From Cyclobacteriaceae bacterium (GTDB taxonomy: Bacteria > Bacteroidota > Bacteroidia > Cytophagales > Cyclobacteriaceae), in NCBI GenBank assembly GCA_019638285.1, contig JAHBUB010000013.1, positions 22,406 through 86,405 on the forward strand: a stretch of 64,000 nt of DNA, given 5' to 3'. Positions 4,114 through 55,939 of this stretch are shown piece by piece. The translations under genes and the position numbers were made by a program. Under the pieces are notes generated by a model. The model saw nothing but the letters and a program-made list of their open reading frames with translations. It was not told the DNA's origin and made no database searches. The number at the start of each line of letters is the position of its first letter. Positions within the stretch are counted from its first letter, which is position 1.

Positions 4114-5184
4114 TTAATCCAGCATACTCGCTTCCACTGTTGCCTTTTCTGGCCTCAACTGACGTACGGCAGCTCCTGCCTGCCACAACTCACTTTCACG
4201 CAATTCCTTCAGTTCTTCTCCAAGTTTTTCACGGTAGTCGGGCTGGCTACATTTATCAATAGTGCGTTGTGCTTCTGCTCCACTCTCTACACTATCATAT
4301 AGTTCTTTGAACACAGGAAGGGTTGCTGCTTTGAATTTTTTCTTCCAGTCCAAGGCGCCTCGTTGTGCAGTGGTAGAACAATTGGCGTACATCCAATCCA
4401 TTCCGTTTTCTGCCACGAGTGGCATAAGGCTTTGCGTAAGTTCTTCTACCGTTTCGTTGAATGCTTCAGACGGAGAATGTCCCTTGGACCGAAGTACTTC
4501 ATATTGCGCTTCAAAAATTCCTGCAATAGCGCCCATGAGCGTGCCTCGCTCTCCGGTCAAATCAGAATATACTTCTTTCTTGAAATCTGTTTTGAACAAA
4601 TAGCCGGAGCCCACGCCTATTCCTAAGGCAATTGCTCTTTCCTCAGCTTTTCCTGTAGCATTCTGAAAAACAGCATAACTGGAGTTGATTCCTTTTCCTT
4701 GTTGAAATAATCTTCTTACAGAAGTCCCAGAACCTTTTGGCGCAGCCAACACTACATCAATGTCAGCAGGTGGAACGATTCCTGTTTTCTCTTTAAAGGT
4801 AATTCCAAATCCATGGGAGAAATACAATGTTTTTCCCGCGGTGAGGTGTGGTTTTATTGTTGGCCACAACGTAATTTGACCTGCATCAGAAAGTAAATAT
4901 TCAATTACTGTACCTTGTCGCACGGCTTCTTCAATTTCAAAAAGTGTTTCCCCTGGTACCCAACCGTGTGAAACTGCCTTGTCCCATGTTTTAGATCCTT
5001 TTCTCTGTCCTACAATTACATTGAATCCGTTATCACGTAAGTTCAAGGCCTGTGCTGGTCCTTGTACACCATATCCAATTATTGCAATTGTTTCATCTTT
5101 CAATACATCCAATGCCTTTTCCATGGGAAACTCTTCGCGGGTAACTACTTCTTCTAATGTTCCACCAAAATTAATTTGTGCCAT
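4114..5184 (-). CDS. ilvC: ketol-acid reductoisomerase
   Basis: This NADPH-dependent Mg enzyme converts acetolactate and acetohydroxybutyrate to the dihydroxy acids in valine, leucine and isoleucine synthesis. The Rossmann motif is GYGVQG at residues 37-42, followed by VGQRKGSKTW, the loop that binds the 2'-phosphate of NADPH. The helical C-terminal domain carries the acidic metal-binding residues, for example in SDLTGERGTLMGA. It is a short, class I-like enzyme of 356 residues. The gene lies 34 bp downstream of ilvN in the operon. An older gene-finder might call one of the several opposite-strand frames here, but none has family support. Confidence 0.96.
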   Translation of the reverse strand: MAQINFGGTLEEVVTREEFPMEKALDVLKDETIAIIGYGVQGPAQALNLRDNGFNVIVGQRKGSKTWDKAVSHGWVPGETLFEIEEAVRQGTVIEYLLSDAGQITLWPTIKPHLTAGKTLYFSHGFGITFKEKTGIVPPADIDVVLAAPKGSGTSVRRLFQQGKGINSSYAVFQNATGKAEERAIALGIGVGSGYLFKTDFKKEVYSDLTGERGTLMGAIAGIFEAQYEVLRSKGHSPSEAFNETVEELTQSLMPLVAENGMDWMYANCSTTAQRGALDWKKKFKAATLPVFKELYDSVESGAEAQRTIDKCSQPDYREKLGEELKELRESELWQAGAAVRQLRPEKATVEASMLD

Positions 5185-50432: not shown

Positions 50433-50640
50433 GGATTAAGTTCTGCATCAAAGATGATCAATTTTAGAAGTAACTGAAATTGTGCGAACTAAAAACAAAA
50501 ACCCAATTATTAGAATACGGAAGGTGAGCTAAAAAGAATAACTTATCCCCTCAGCCTGGTATTACCCCCTTGTATTCTTTTACAAGGAAGTAATTTTTTG
50601 CATCTTGCGCGCGAAATTAACTGACAAGTGTCCGATTGCT

Positions 50641-51129
50641 ATGGCATTATTAGAAAAACAATTATATGTGAAGAAGTCTACCTTGCCTGGAGCAGGGAAG
50701 GGATTGTTCACAAAGAAGAAAATTGAAAAAGGAACTCGGATCGTTGAGTACAAGGGTGAGATACTAACCTGGAAAGAGGTTAAGGAGTTGGCAGATGACC
50801 GTAATGGATACGTTTTCCATATTAATAATAAACGATGTATTGATGCCTGGAATTATAAAAAGGCATTTGGACGATATGCCAATGATGCAAGAGGGATTGG
50901 CCGCATTAAAGGATTAAAAACCAACGCAGAGTATGTAATTAGTGATGATAAGCAAAAATGCTTTATCGAAGCCACTAGAGATATACCTGCCTGGTCAGAG
51001 ATTTTTGTAGAGTATGGAGCAGATTATTGGAAAGTGATGCGTGAGAATCTCAAAATTGATCAGGAATGGGAGAAGAAGAATGGAAAGAAAGCAAAGTTGC
51101 CTCACCACAAGGCAACTAAGCGAAAGTAG
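50641..51129 (+). CDS. SET-domain protein (putative lysine methyltransferase)
   Basis: This 162-residue protein is a bare SET domain. Hallmarks are KSTLPGAGKGLFTKKKIEKGT, GRYANDARG (in place of the usual NH-S pattern) and a C-terminal EIFVEYGADYW (E-x-x-x-x-Y). It would use SAM to methylate lysine on a protein. The ATG at 50641 was chosen; an upstream frame from 50605 adds 12 unlikely residues. The very basic tail (KKNGKKAKLPHHKATKRK) may contact nucleic acid or be self-methylated. The target is unknown. Confidence 0.85.
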   Translation: MALLEKQLYVKKSTLPGAGKGLFTKKKIEKGTRIVEYKGEILTWKEVKELADDRNGYVFHINNKRCIDAWNYKKAFGRYANDARGIGRIKGLKTNAEYVISDDKQKCFIEATRDIPAWSEIFVEYGADYWKVMRENLKIDQEWEKKNGKKAKLPHHKATKRK

Positions 51130-51588: not shown

Positions 51589-51749
51589 GGGTAAAATTTT
51601 ATTTGCACAAAGGTACGGGTTTTTGAGCCCTTTCATGCTATTTGTTAAAAGCAAACGGTAGTTAGGTTTGAAGATTTTTGTAAAAAATGTATGATCGGTG
51701 ATTGTTCTAAGTAAATATTTTGCTTTCTTAGCGCTTCAATTACGAACAA

Positions 51750-51830
51750 GTGAGCAACAAGCGATTTTACTTTTACTTTTTTATCTATCAAACCCACACG
51801 GGACTTGATCGAGAATCGCTTTGTTATTAA
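51750..51830 (+). CDS. Phe/Tyr operon leader peptide (26 codons)
   Basis: A GTG-initiated frame encodes a 26-residue peptide whose residues 6-13 are FYFYFFIY, so seven of eight are aromatic. No other start exists after the preceding in-frame stop. It ends 22 bases before a strong terminator hairpin in front of pheA. Stalling at Phe or Tyr codons would sense both end products of the operon, which carries pheA and tyrA. It is analogous to E. coli pheL but with Tyr included. Confidence 0.85.
   Translation: MSNKRFYFYFFIYQTHTGLDRESLCY
51798..51806 (+). promoter_or_regulatory. antiterminator arm of the Phe/Tyr attenuator
   Basis: ACGGGACTT (leader codons 17-19) contains CGGGACTT, exactly complementary to AAGTCCCG in the left arm of the terminator (51854-51861). 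It lies just 3' of the aromatic codon run. It is free when a ribosome stalls there and covered when translation completes. Confidence 0.78.
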
Positions 51831-51852
51831 AAAATAAACAGAGAATATTCAG

Positions 51853-51886
51853 AAAGTCCCGGAAAACCGGGACTTTTTGTTTTTAT
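51853..51886 (+). terminator. attenuator hairpin of the Phe/Tyr operon
   Basis: AAAGTCCCGG and CCGGGACTTT form a perfect 10-bp stem with an AAAA loop, followed by TTGTTTTTAT. It stands 12 bp before pheA. With the leader and the competing arm it forms a complete attenuator. Confidence 0.92.
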
Positions 51887-51897
51887 AGACTTTTGAG

Positions 51898-52737
51898 ATG
51901 AACACAAAGAAAAAAAAGAAAGTTGCGATACAAGGAATAGCCACTAGTTTTCACGAAGTAGCGGCCATGCAGCATTTTGGTCAGGAGATAGAAACCATTG
52001 AGTGTCTTTCCTTTCATAATTTATGCGAAACATTAAAAAGCGGCCATGCAGACTTTGGGGTAATGGCAATTGAAAACTCGATAGCTGGTGGTATTCTTCC
52101 CAATTACTTCCTGTTGCAACAATATCACTTCACCATCCTTGGTGAAGTATACCTTCCTATCCGAATGCACTTGCTGGCACTTCCGGGCGTAACCTTATCT
52201 GACATTTTAGTAATCGAATCGCATCCGATGGCGATCCGGCAGTGTTCAGATTACTTACAGCAATTGCCAAATGTGCAGATACGCGAAAGTGATGACACGG
52301 CATGGTCAGCAAAAAAGATTTGGGAAGATAAATTGACCGATACTGCGGCCATCGCCAACGAACAGGCTGCCAAAAAATACGGGCTGTCTATTCTCGAAAG
52401 AAGGATAGAGACGCATAAGAAAAACTTTACCCGGTTTCTTATTCTCGCAAAAAGAAATGGTGAGCAGAAGGGGGGTAACAAAGCATCCATTTCATTTGAG
52501 GTGGCCAATGAAGTAGGTAGTCTTGCAGATGCATTAATGACATTCAAGAGTCAGAAGATCAATCTGTCAAAGATTCAATCGGTGCCTATTATTGGCAAAC
52601 CATCGGAATACACGATCCATGTTGACGTGGAGTGGAGTAGAAGAAAAGATTACGATGAGGCCATTCAGCATTTGATACGACAAGTAAGAAACCTGAATAT
52701 CTTGGGGGAATATAAAAAAGCAGAAATAAAGTTTTAA
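51898..52737 (+). CDS. pheA: prephenate dehydratase
   Basis: This enzyme converts prephenate to phenylpyruvate. The catalytic domain (about 1-185) shows AIENSIAGGILPNYFLL and the ESHPMAIRQC segment. DTAAIANEQAAKKYGL and THKKNFTRFLIL carry the conserved catalytic Thr region. A C-terminal ACT domain (about 200-279) has SISFEVANEVGSLADAL and the ESxP-like QSVPIIGKPSEYTIHVDV, for feedback by phenylalanine. No chorismate mutase is fused here; that activity is at the end of the operon. The ATG is 12 bp after the attenuator hairpin. Confidence 0.94.
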   Translation: MNTKKKKKVAIQGIATSFHEVAAMQHFGQEIETIECLSFHNLCETLKSGHADFGVMAIENSIAGGILPNYFLLQQYHFTILGEVYLPIRMHLLALPGVTLSDILVIESHPMAIRQCSDYLQQLPNVQIRESDDTAWSAKKIWEDKLTDTAAIANEQAAKKYGLSILERRIETHKKNFTRFLILAKRNGEQKGGNKASISFEVANEVGSLADALMTFKSQKINLSKIQSVPIIGKPSEYTIHVDVEWSRRKDYDEAIQHLIRQVRNLNILGEYKKAEIKF

Positions 52738-52741
52738 TGAG

Positions 52742-53941
52742 ATGATCGAATTAGCGAGACGTATTGAAAAAGTGGAGGAGTATTACTTTTCAAAAAAATT
52801 GCAAGAGGTAAGAAGCTTAGATAGTCAGGCGTTTCCGGTTATTAATTTGGGAATAGGGAGTCCTGATTTGCCTCCCGCTCAAAGTGTTATCGAAGCTTTA
52901 CAAGACACTGCGCAACTACCGGGAAGTCATGGCTATCAGAGCTACAAGGGAATTCCTAATTTTAGAAAAAATATTGCAAATTTTTATAATAGGATTTATG
53001 GAGTTTCTCTTGATTCAGAGAAGATGATTTTACCATTGATGGGATCGAAAGAAGGGATCATGCATATTTCAATGGCATTTGTAAATGAAGGAGATGAGGT
53101 GCTGATCCCTGACCCTGGGTATCCAACTTATGCTTCCGTGTCGCAATTGGTGGGTGCAAAAGTAAGTACATACAAATTAGATGAAGAGGCTGATTGGCAG
53201 ATTGATTTTGAGGAATTGGAAAAGAGAGATCTTTCAAAAGTAAAGATCATGTGGATCAATTCCCCCCATATGCCCACAGGGAGTGTATTGCCTATTGGTG
53301 ATATGAAACGATTGGTACAGTTGGCTCGAGCAAACAATTTTTTATTAGTCAATGACAATCCCTATAGTCTTATTCTTAATGATTCTCCTCAAAGTATTTT
53401 TTCAATTGATGGAGCAGAGGAAGTCGCGTTGGAGTTAAACTCATTAAGTAAATCACATAACATGCCGGGGTGGAGAATAGGTTGGTTGATAGGAAGCGCG
53501 CATCATGTGGATGCCGTACTTCGTGTAAAGAGCAATATGGACTCGGGAATGTTTTTGGGAATTCAACAGGCAGCTGTGCAAGCTCTTCAGCAACCCGATA
53601 GTTGGTTTGAGGAGTTGAACAGTTTGTATCGCCAGAGAAGGGCAAAGGCATTTGAGATTATGGAGCTACTGTCTTGTTTCTATTCATCTCATCAGGCTGG
53701 TCTATTTGTTTGGGCGAAAGTACCAGACACGGTTGAGTCCGTGGAGAAGTGGATAGACACTATCTTATATAAGACAAAAGTGTTTATAACTCCTGGGTTT
53801 ATTTTTGGAGAGAGTGGGCAACGATTTATAAGAATTTCATTGTGTGCGTCTATTGAGAAACTACAGGAAGCTTTTGATCGCATTAATGCATTCATGGCTC
53901 ATAATTTTGAAGAGGTGGAATTGACTAAAAAAGCAGGGTGA
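52742..53941 (+). CDS. class I/II aminotransferase (aromatic)
   Basis: This PLP aminotransferase of 399 residues has the lysine Lys237 in NSLSKSHNMPGWRIGW and the PDPGYPTY motif. By position between pheA and tyrA it should transaminate phenylpyruvate and 4-hydroxyphenylpyruvate to Phe and Tyr. The family also includes diaminopimelate aminotransferase, and sequence alone does not exclude broader use. It is 4 bp after pheA and its TGA overlaps the tyrA start. Confidence 0.9.
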   Translation: MIELARRIEKVEEYYFSKKLQEVRSLDSQAFPVINLGIGSPDLPPAQSVIEALQDTAQLPGSHGYQSYKGIPNFRKNIANFYNRIYGVSLDSEKMILPLMGSKEGIMHISMAFVNEGDEVLIPDPGYPTYASVSQLVGAKVSTYKLDEEADWQIDFEELEKRDLSKVKIMWINSPHMPTGSVLPIGDMKRLVQLARANNFLLVNDNPYSLILNDSPQSIFSIDGAEEVALELNSLSKSHNMPGWRIGWLIGSAHHVDAVLRVKSNMDSGMFLGIQQAAVQALQQPDSWFEELNSLYRQRRAKAFEIMELLSCFYSSHQAGLFVWAKVPDTVESVEKWIDTILYKTKVFITPGFIFGESGQRFIRISLCASIEKLQEAFDRINAFMAHNFEEVELTKKAG

Positions 53942-54837
53942 TGAAAGTAACAATAATAGGATTGGGATTGATCGGTGGCTCTATCGCGATTGACTTAAGA
54001 AAAAAGGGAGTTGCGACCCAATTGATTGGAGTTGATCAAAATGAGGATCATGTAAGTGAGGCCCTTCGATTGGGAATAGTAGATGAAGTTAAAGGTATAA
54101 AAGAGGCAGTGGAGAATACCGACTTGATCATATTGTCAATACCAGTAAATGCAATGATAGGCATGATTGGAGATTTACTGAGTAGAGTGAATCCGGGGGT
54201 TACCATTATTGATATGGGATCAACGAAGTCTGCGATATGTAACGCAATAAGAACACACAAGAATCGAAGCCAATTTGTAGCGGCACATCCAATTGCCGGA
54301 ACAGAAAATTCAGGCCCAGGTGCAGCTTTGTTGGGATTGTTTAATAATAAGACCATGATTGTTTGCGAAAAGGAATGTTCTTCTGACAATGCGCTTAGTG
54401 TGGCAGATAAGGTATTTAAGGCGCTGAGTGTAAAAACAATTTTTATGAAGCCACTCGATCATGATAGGCATGTGGCATATGTTTCACATCTGTCGCACGT
54501 GAGCTCATTTCTTTTGGGTAAAACAGTAATGGATATTGAAAAGGATGAAAAAAATATTTTTGATCTGGCGGGAAGTGGTTTCGCTTCCACGGTTCGGTTG
54601 GCCAAAAGCTCACCCGACATGTGGGCTCCTATATTTGAGCAAAATGCGGAATACCTAAGCCAGGCATTGCAAGAATACATTATGCATTTACAGCGCTTTC
54701 ATTATTATTTAATGAAAAAGGACTCCAAAGAAATACACCACATTATGACAGAGGCCAATGAAATCAGAAGAGTGCTAAGTGGCATAGAATTGAAAAACGA
54801 AAAAGAAAATAAAGTTGAATTATTAATTGAGGAATAA
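53941..54837 (+). CDS. tyrA: prephenate dehydrogenase
   Basis: This NAD(P)-dependent enzyme oxidises prephenate to 4-hydroxyphenylpyruvate. The Rossmann motif IGLGLIGGSIA opens the protein, and VDQNEDH ends the second strand. The catalytic-site pattern AHPIAGTENSGPGAA is clear, and DHDRHVAYVSHLSHVSSF follows. The helical C-terminal domain completes 298 residues. The ATG at 53941 overlaps the preceding stop by one base, and the gene overlaps nothing downstream. Confidence 0.94.
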   Translation: MKVTIIGLGLIGGSIAIDLRKKGVATQLIGVDQNEDHVSEALRLGIVDEVKGIKEAVENTDLIILSIPVNAMIGMIGDLLSRVNPGVTIIDMGSTKSAICNAIRTHKNRSQFVAAHPIAGTENSGPGAALLGLFNNKTMIVCEKECSSDNALSVADKVFKALSVKTIFMKPLDHDRHVAYVSHLSHVSSFLLGKTVMDIEKDEKNIFDLAGSGFASTVRLAKSSPDMWAPIFEQNAEYLSQALQEYIMHLQRFHYYLMKKDSKEIHHIMTEANEIRRVLSGIELKNEKENKVELLIEE

Positions 54838-54838
54838 C

Positions 54839-55939
54839 ATGAAAAAGGAATTGCAATTAGAAGAAATGAGTAGCTGGATCAGTGCAGAAAGACCATTGGT
54901 AATAAGTGGGCCTTGCAGTGCAGAAAGTGAAAATCAGATGGTGGGCACTGCAAAATTGCTGGCTGCGACTGGTAGAGTGAATGTATTGCGCGCAGGAATT
55001 TGGAAGCCACGCACACGACCCGGACAATATGAAGGTGCAGGAAGCGAAGGATTAAAATGGTTGATGAAAGCAAAAGCTGAAACGGGTTTGCCTGTAGCTA
55101 CCGAGGTGGCCAATGCTTCCCATGTAGAGCAATGCCTTAAAGCAGGTGTAGATATTTTATGGGTAGGAGCACGCACAACGGTAAATCCATTTTCTGTACA
55201 AGACGTAGCGGATGCCCTCAAAGGAGTAGATATTCCTGTGTTGGTAAAAAATCCAGTGAACCCTGATCTCGAATTATGGATAGGTGCTTTGGAACGACTC
55301 AATCGTGCAGGCATTACAAAACTAGCGGCCATTCATCGTGGGTTTTCTTCTTTTGAAAAGAGCCCCTTTCGCAATGCACCGATGTGGGATATTGCCATTG
55401 AATTAAAAACTAGATTTCCTGAACTGGCTATCATTTGCGATCCCAGTCATATTGGAGGACAGCGCGAACTGATTCAATTCATTGCTCAAAAAGCACTTGA
55501 TCTGGATATGGCCGGATTGATGATTGAAAGTCACATTGAGCCTTCAGTAGCATTGAGCGATGCAAAACAACAGGTAACACCATCTGCACTCGCTAAAATA
55601 CTTGAGGATTTAGTCGTTCGAACCTCCTCAACAGCAAATAAGGAGTTCAAAAATACTCTTACCATTTTGCGAGAGCAAATAGATGGATTGGATGATCAAA
55701 TTATGCAAACGATGGCTGCTCGAATGAAAATTTCAGAACAAATTGGTAACTACAAGCGAGATAATAAAGTCACTATTTTACAAGTGAATCGGTGGGAGGA
55801 AATTATTGAAACGCGAATTGCACAGGGTAATGCCATGGGACTTGGCGATGATTTTATAACAAACCTTCTCAAGTTGATCCACAATGAGTCAATTCTGGTG
55901 CAGCAGAGTGTGATGAATAAGGTGGTGGAAAAGGCATAA
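54839..55939 (+). CDS. bifunctional DAHP synthase and chorismate mutase
   Basis: This two-domain enzyme makes 3-deoxy-D-arabino-heptulosonate 7-phosphate and interconverts chorismate to prephenate. Residues about 1-260 form a type I-beta DAHP synthase: GPCSAES, AGIWKPRTRPGQYEGAG, GARTTVNPF, KNPVNPD, CDPSHIGGQ and IESHIEPS. Residues about 275-366 form an AroQ chorismate mutase (LREQIDGLDDQIMQTMAARMKISEQIGNYKRDN). The fusion places the entry step and the branch-point step in one protein in the Phe/Tyr operon. The ATG at 54839 overlaps the end of neither neighbour; the upstream gap is one base. Confidence 0.94.
   Translation: MKKELQLEEMSSWISAERPLVISGPCSAESENQMVGTAKLLAATGRVNVLRAGIWKPRTRPGQYEGAGSEGLKWLMKAKAETGLPVATEVANASHVEQCLKAGVDILWVGARTTVNPFSVQDVADALKGVDIPVLVKNPVNPDLELWIGALERLNRAGITKLAAIHRGFSSFEKSPFRNAPMWDIAIELKTRFPELAIICDPSHIGGQRELIQFIAQKALDLDMAGLMIESHIEPSVALSDAKQQVTPSALAKILEDLVVRTSSTANKEFKNTLTILREQIDGLDDQIMQTMAARMKISEQIGNYKRDNKVTILQVNRWEEIIETRIAQGNAMGLGDDFITNLLKLIHNESILVQQSVMNKVVEKA

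Follow-up and report, generated by a model that had tools for sequence, protein, structure and literature searches.

The trp and his leader-peptide attenuators, trpL and hisL, and the enterobacterial pheL attenuator, whose leader codons are for Phe alone, are the described systems closest to the element analyzed here. According to the accessible text of a study from 2010, such systems had been shown just in Proteobacteria and Actinobacteria before the Firmicutes case that it presented (PMC2965389). In the available part of a more closely related source, Flavobacterium psychrophilum and further members of the Flavobacteriaceae are reported to have structured, conserved 5' elements ahead of pheA and of hisG, the amino-acid operons of flavobacteria are credited with strong clues for leader-peptide attenuation, and Bacteroidota translation is stated to start without Shine-Dalgarno sites (PMC9723704). 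As far as that part of the source goes, the attenuation idea has thus already been published for this phylum. The accessible text of PMC7366714 mentions small frames resembling leaders in Bacteroides, and the available portion of a work on Bacteroidota his genes raises attenuation for enterobacteria only (PMC8305728). Among the listings and passages that our literature search covered, mostly of openly accessible papers, no description of this element in Cytophagales was found.

Anatomy of the leader region and its operon

The element lies ahead of pheA in the window, that is, the whole stretch of 64,000 nucleotides that was analyzed (Table 1). Domain and family matches confirmed the four downstream genes as prephenate dehydratase, aminotransferase, prephenate dehydrogenase, and DAHP synthase with chorismate mutase, which bears out an earlier sequence-only reading of an operon that makes both Phe and Tyr. 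By the program-listed starts, the genes are spaced by a 4 bp gap and subsequently by overlaps. The gene order pheA, aminotransferase, tyrA, DAHP synthase recurs in 69 of 80 related loci, DAHP synthase comes first in two, and a DAHP synthase match is absent in nine, several of these on short contigs. A small SET-domain protein frame (PF00856) occupies positions 50605-51129 of the window on the + strand and was matched in 33 of the 80 related loci.

The sequence-only reading had proposed a GTG-started frame of 26 codons containing FYFYFFIY, and this frame is present as described. Its GTG start is backed by homology, as one relative (L044) has ATG at the same position followed by five identical codons and another (L034) has GTG too. 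Across 79 elements, which comprise the relatives' leaders, the window, and loci L007, L008, and L020, the start codon is ATG in 76, GTG in 2 (the window and L034), and TTG in 1. A second aromatic leader copy was sought in the same genome with an F/Y codon pattern, which tolerates a single non-aromatic codon in one set position and would miss other arrangements; four matches were obtained, and the three besides the known leader lacked a leader with terminator.

The exact complementarity claimed between codons 17-19 and the left arm of the terminator was confirmed, CGGGACTT being the reverse complement of AAGTCCCG (51854-51861), and when the 40 nt that follow the aromatic codons were shuffled 2000 times, 25 shuffles equalled the real arm match. 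A terminator with a U tract does precede pheA, and its stem comprises 13 pairs, including one G-U, around an AAAA loop and followed by TTTTTATA, rather than the 10 bp first read. Likewise, the 12 bp originally given as the distance to pheA is approximately the distance counted from where the U tract stops, whereas 18 bp separate the end of the stem from the pheA ATG (51898). A short frame rich in end-product codons and, behind it, an intrinsic terminator ahead of the first gene are thus both present. When positions 51730-51897 were folded, 1 of 200 shuffles did equally well or better (z -4.18).

Upstream of the leader, a candidate -7 box agrees with the Bacteroidota consensus at 4/6 positions, a weak match; this promoter box, TAnnTTTG, is named in the available part of PMC9723704. 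A 6/6 box within 60 nt was found in 13 of the 79 elements against 3.4 expected from shuffles, not always at the same place as in the window. Of CTTTG/CTTAG-like pentamers in the element set, 49 of 99 end 16-20 nt before the leader start, a pattern picked out by eye and counted without a shuffle control. We infer a promoter near 51724-51731 and translation of the leader.

Table 1. Features of the element and of the operon behind it (window coordinates)
Feature	Position	Strand	Details and basis
Candidate -7 promoter box TTTCTTAG	51724..51731	+	18 nt 5' of leader start; weak match to Bacteroidota TAnnTTTG
Leader peptide frame	51750..51830	+	GTG start, 26 codons; translation VSNKRFYFYFFIYQTHTGLDRESLCY, then stop; leader present in 75 of 79 relatives
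Stem P1, 5' arm	51759..51768	+	Protector (1:2); covariation, pairing score versus shuffled and swapped
Control codons 6-13	51765..51788	+	FYFYFFIY (TTT TAC TTT TAC TTT TTT ATC TAT)
Hairpin P2	51788..51808	+	TCAA.CCC / GGG..TTGA; would hide region 2 without a ribosome; folding
Region 2, antiterminator strand	51799..51806	+	CGGGACTT; within codons 17-19
Stem P1, 3' arm	51812..51821	+	
Terminator hairpin	51850..51879	+	Region 3, 51850-51862; region 4, 51867-51879; 51854-51861 pairs with region 2
U tract	51880..51886	+	
pheA, prephenate dehydratase	51898..52737	+	PF00800, 3.9e-55
Class I/II aminotransferase	52742..53941	+	Domain matches
tyrA, prephenate dehydrogenase	53938..54837	+	NF006307, over its cut-off
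DAHP synthase fused to chorismate mutase	54827..55939	+	PF00793 and PF01817; program-listed start

Conservation and constraint among relatives

PheA relatives were taken from a scan of species genomes, the best 80 of 127 being kept, and the upstream regions of 79 were compared after one locus whose contig begins inside pheA (L108) was dropped. The closest named relatives are Cytophagales, an order of the class Bacteroidia. An F/Y-rich frame with a terminator 5' of pheA was present in 75 of the 79. Among the four misses, L094 has the hairpin, and its aromatic frame is disrupted at about 4857-4905, where a homopolymer is one T shorter than in the close relative L092; this may be a sequencing error. 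Upstream of pheA in L106, neither leader nor hairpin was seen. In the two Algoriphagus loci, L110 and L111, a leader with IYFTFFYFYFR and a terminator stands at about 1360-1520 before another gene, not pheA. In both loci this gene is a DAHP synthase-chorismate mutase that heads a rearranged aromatic operon. The L110 operon runs from DAHP synthase-chorismate mutase (identified by Pfam) through 3-dehydroquinate synthase, EPSP synthase (aroA), and pheA to an aminotransferase and a tyrA-like frame, the last two named from their position and the start of their sequence. The leader therefore tracks the head of the operon. Relatives that keep the hairpin and lack aromatic codons, an observation that the sequence-only reading had set against itself, did not clearly turn up among the 79.

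The same test for a leader with terminator was applied throughout the 80 loci and the window, to 699 regions of 400 bases, each lying 5' of a frame no shorter than 150 codons. It was passed by 77 regions, 73 of which were assigned to pheA automatically; the remainder were a pheA region with an alternative start (L091), the two Algoriphagus operon heads, and a minus-strand match in L049 that looks like chance.

Taking the longest aromatic cluster of each leader as its run, we obtained 612 codons from 75 distinct leaders, with 321 for Phe, 250 for Tyr, 20 for Trp, and 21 for others; TTA and TTG were absent. Third bases in these runs were T in 407 codons, C in 183, G in 20 (all TGG), and A in 2. 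Phe and Tyr occur together in all 75 distinct leaders, and Trp occurs in 20 of them (21 of the 79 elements). The order of residues in the run is variable (FYFYFFIY, FYFSFYFY, FYFWFYFY, FFYFYYYFF, among others), as are the flanking residues, and it is the content that is kept. Region 2 begins 8-11 nt past the last aromatic codon in 77 of the 79 elements (5 nt in one and 7 nt in another), and the front edge of a ribosome holding that codon in its A site falls at about this place. Relative to the leader frame, the GGG of region 2 is found in every one of the three phases (56, 14, and 9 elements), and in L055 and L061 the leader tail is read in a different frame from that of their relatives. Since the aromatic run stays in frame with both synonymous third bases while region 2, kept as RNA, lies in three phases, peptide and RNA are constrained separately.

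Pairing was assessed in an alignment of 74 sequences, with L007 and the near-duplicates L057, L068, L084, and L105 left out of the 79 elements. In this alignment, P1 and the terminator covary: 87.6% of their cells are paired against 79.8% when shuffled, 14 pairs changed on both sides against 11.2, and the cells with such double changes number 151, compared with 59.7 ± 6.6 in shuffles, none of 500 being as high. Sliding this structure by one column lowers pairing to 60%, a comparison that favors the structure because it was derived from the window. Covariation support for the other two helices is weaker. For the 2:3 helix, 92.2% of cells are paired against 89.9% and 11 cells changed on both sides against 3.5 (1 of 500 shuffles as high), with no excess of pairs changed on both sides (2 versus 2.5 in shuffles). 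For P2, there are 20 cells with changes on both sides, compared with 10.3 in shuffles, and here too the pairs of this kind are not in excess (2 versus 3.3). Scored sequence by sequence, the 2:3 helix reached 20.7, compared with 11.4 after letter shuffling and 19.2 (maximum 19.6) after swapping between species. P1 was scored in this way too, because MAFFT misaligns it in clades with another leader start; its mean of 19.0 compares with 12.9 when shuffled and 15.3 (maximum 16.1) when swapped.

Beyond these relatives, a leader was found near pheA in 12 of 29 best-match loci of the order, namely, 7/7 in the bacterium's own family and 5/22 in other families; directly before pheA, the element is absent in the other 17. 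Twenty further stretches were chosen among the matches without loci, 15 of them belonging to the own family and 5 to other families, and a leader was present in one only, L151 of another family, within about 520 bases. None of the 15 own-family stretches had a leader directly upstream of pheA (0/15). In 12 of these 15, aroA lies directly 5' of pheA, as in Algoriphagus, so pheA is not the operon head there and the leader would be expected further upstream. Judging from these loci, more distant members of the order are mostly without the element directly before pheA. Four loci of another family of the order (L010, L011, L014, and L015) have very short aromatic leaders of 11 residues (MLFAFYYFYQS and similar), with the terminator 29-31 bp 5' of pheA. 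Across the class, 57 of 197 genomes gave a prephenate dehydratase match. The class sample consisted of 29 loci and 20 of the 27 matches without loci, and among its 46 regions outside the order, 25 have an aromatic leader and a terminator before pheA, compared with 0 in 10 shuffles per batch.

Predicted switch and competing explanations

These observations support the interpretation as a leader attenuator, and the sequence-level predictions that followed from it held. We consider, with a probability of about 0.93, that the element is a ribosome-mediated transcription attenuator sensing the supply of charged tRNA-Phe and tRNA-Tyr. When charged tRNA-Phe or tRNA-Tyr is scarce, the leading ribosome would stall on one of codons 6-13, disrupting P1 and P2 and leaving region 2 exposed; free region 2 would then pair with region 3, the terminator would be blocked, and the operon would be transcribed. 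When both tRNAs are well charged, the ribosome would instead cover region 2 and allow the 13-pair terminator to form ahead of pheA. If the leader were untranslated, P1 and P2 would mask region 2, and the terminator would be expected to form as well. The analysis shows the anatomy, its conservation, its covariation, and the predicted switch; termination itself and its response to amino acids we infer.

Folding with a stalled ribosome is consistent with such a switch, on the assumption that the ribosome's front edge is 12 nt away from where the A-site codon begins. For RNA from the ribosome edge to region 3, all eight antiterminator pairs are predicted with the A site on codons 4-13, six remain at codon 14, and from codon 15 on there are none, so that the structure flips as Tyr13 is left. 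By this behavior, stalling at any Phe codon (6, 8, 10, 11) or any Tyr codon (7, 9, 13) would open the switch, which would make it an OR gate. Prediction and conservation together thus point to an exclusive antiterminator that is free when the ribosome sits on the control codons. For the full RNA, the equilibrium prediction prefers the terminator at every ribosome position tried, as expected if the switch is decided by timing. Without a ribosome, the whole RNA is predicted to form P1, P2, and the terminator. As long as region 4 has yet to be transcribed, however, the fold predicted to be most stable in the ribosome-free state is the antiterminator (-23.1 kcal/mol, against -17.3 for P1/P2), and the untranslated state would consequently rely on P1 and P2 folding first.

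It is important to consider other readings of the same anatomy. The hairpin could be a constitutive, condition-independent terminator before pheA, or it could close a transcript coming from upstream, next to a T-rich frame without meaning; with its U tract, it is indeed a strong intrinsic terminator on its own (-20.3 kcal/mol). However, 75 of 79 relatives keep the aromatic frame together with its distance from region 2 and the alternative pairing, and when the 368 bases ahead of pheA were dinucleotide-shuffled 500 times, an aromatic leader with terminator arose once. Moreover, the nearest upstream gene on the same strand stops at 51129, with an opposite-strand frame in between. We regard this explanation as very improbable. 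Equally slim are the chances that the nascent leader peptide arrests the ribosome in response to a small molecule or antibiotic, rather than uncharged tRNA doing so. A short leader with alternative hairpins would look the same in that case, but what is kept here is aromatic content and not residue order, flanking residues vary, and the regulated genes produce Phe and Tyr. Direct binding of tRNA or of an aromatic compound, by a T-box or a riboswitch, would also go with a structured 5' region and a terminator ahead of an amino-acid operon, but it is scarcely credible, as no such family is among the 17 Rfam matches of the stretch at E values up to 10, three tRNAs are all that reaches gathering score in the window, and the 1:2, 2:3, and 3:4 pairings account for the structure.

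Other amino-acid leaders and known systems

The suggestion that attenuation is a general strategy in this genome, made together with a proposal to scan for similar frames, found confirmation in trpE, hisG, and ilv leaders, each with a terminator. The trpE leader MRSNNNIAWWWHFRKSGIGCTCYS, with WWW, lies on contig C17 (L113, about 749-880); in the family, a Trp leader with terminator was scored in 29 of 30 trpE regions (24 of 30 when three Trp in six were demanded), against 0-1 in 8 shuffles. The hisG leader MTQNLNNHGHHHHHISHIWSGWPMF, with HGHHHHHISH, lies on contig C23 (reverse complement of L112, about 1192-1319), and 9 of 30 family hisG regions scored for a His leader, two of these doubtful by eye, against 0 in shuffles. 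In a simple search, the region-2 pairing of the his and trp leaders amounted to just 5-6 bp. Within the window itself, at about 10073-9900 on the minus strand, an Ile/Leu/Val-rich leader MNTTQRYEITNSLINSITGVLVIISIIILPNRDDGGLII (LVIISIIIL) with a 16-pair terminator precedes a class IV aminotransferase and then ilvD; its antiterminator complementarity of 7 bp begins 6 nt past the last control codon, and it is presumably the other attenuator that the sequence-only reading had noted. For thr, no terminator was found upstream of two homoserine dehydrogenase loci, where neither gene need be the operon head.

We lean slightly toward the broader view that attenuation of phe/tyr, trp, his, and ilv genes is an old and widespread trait of the bacterium's class and that the Phe/Tyr leader acts as an OR gate responding to either shortage, and to Trp in some lineages. 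If this is true, leaders without Shine-Dalgarno sites would imply quick ribosome loading on very short 5' ends and ribosomes that keep up with RNA polymerase in Bacteroidota. The conserved, covarying Cytophagales element and its trp, his, and ilv counterparts would offer a ready test of transcription-translation coupling in this phylum, and the alignment could seed RNA family models to annotate such elements.

Among the Rfam matches of the stretch, RF01859, Phe_leader, ranks first; it aligns over its full length, and its 36.3 bits (E 1.1e-4) fall short of the 55 bits set as gathering threshold. Of 20 sources searched, 4 gave sub-cut-off scores of 35.1-39.5 bits for the same family, although the leader was found by scan in 18 of the 20, and 13 further loci matched no Rfam family at gathering score. 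The terminator by itself may contribute part of the Phe_leader score, since the rimP leader scores in this stretch as well (E 0.0042 on the minus strand and 0.026 on the plus strand). Given the sub-threshold score, we file the element as a leader-peptide attenuator and not as a member of RF01859.

Compared with known systems, the trpL and hisL attenuators have counterparts in the same genome, namely, the WWW leader of trpE and the HHHHH leader of hisG with their terminators, and the Phe/Tyr element differs from them in its amino acids. The Flavobacteriaceae sit in another order than the window bacterium. Their pheA element, as described in the available part of its source, belongs to the same phylum and precedes the same downstream genes, a likeness at the level of description. 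With the enterobacterial pheL attenuator, the element shares a product-rich leader peptide, an alternative antiterminator and terminator, and a prephenate dehydratase gene downstream, without any claim of close sequence relation. In contrast to pheL, its control codons are for Phe and Tyr together (with Trp in some elements), its region 2 lies inside the leader frame, and it stands before a four-gene phe/tyr/DAHP operon.
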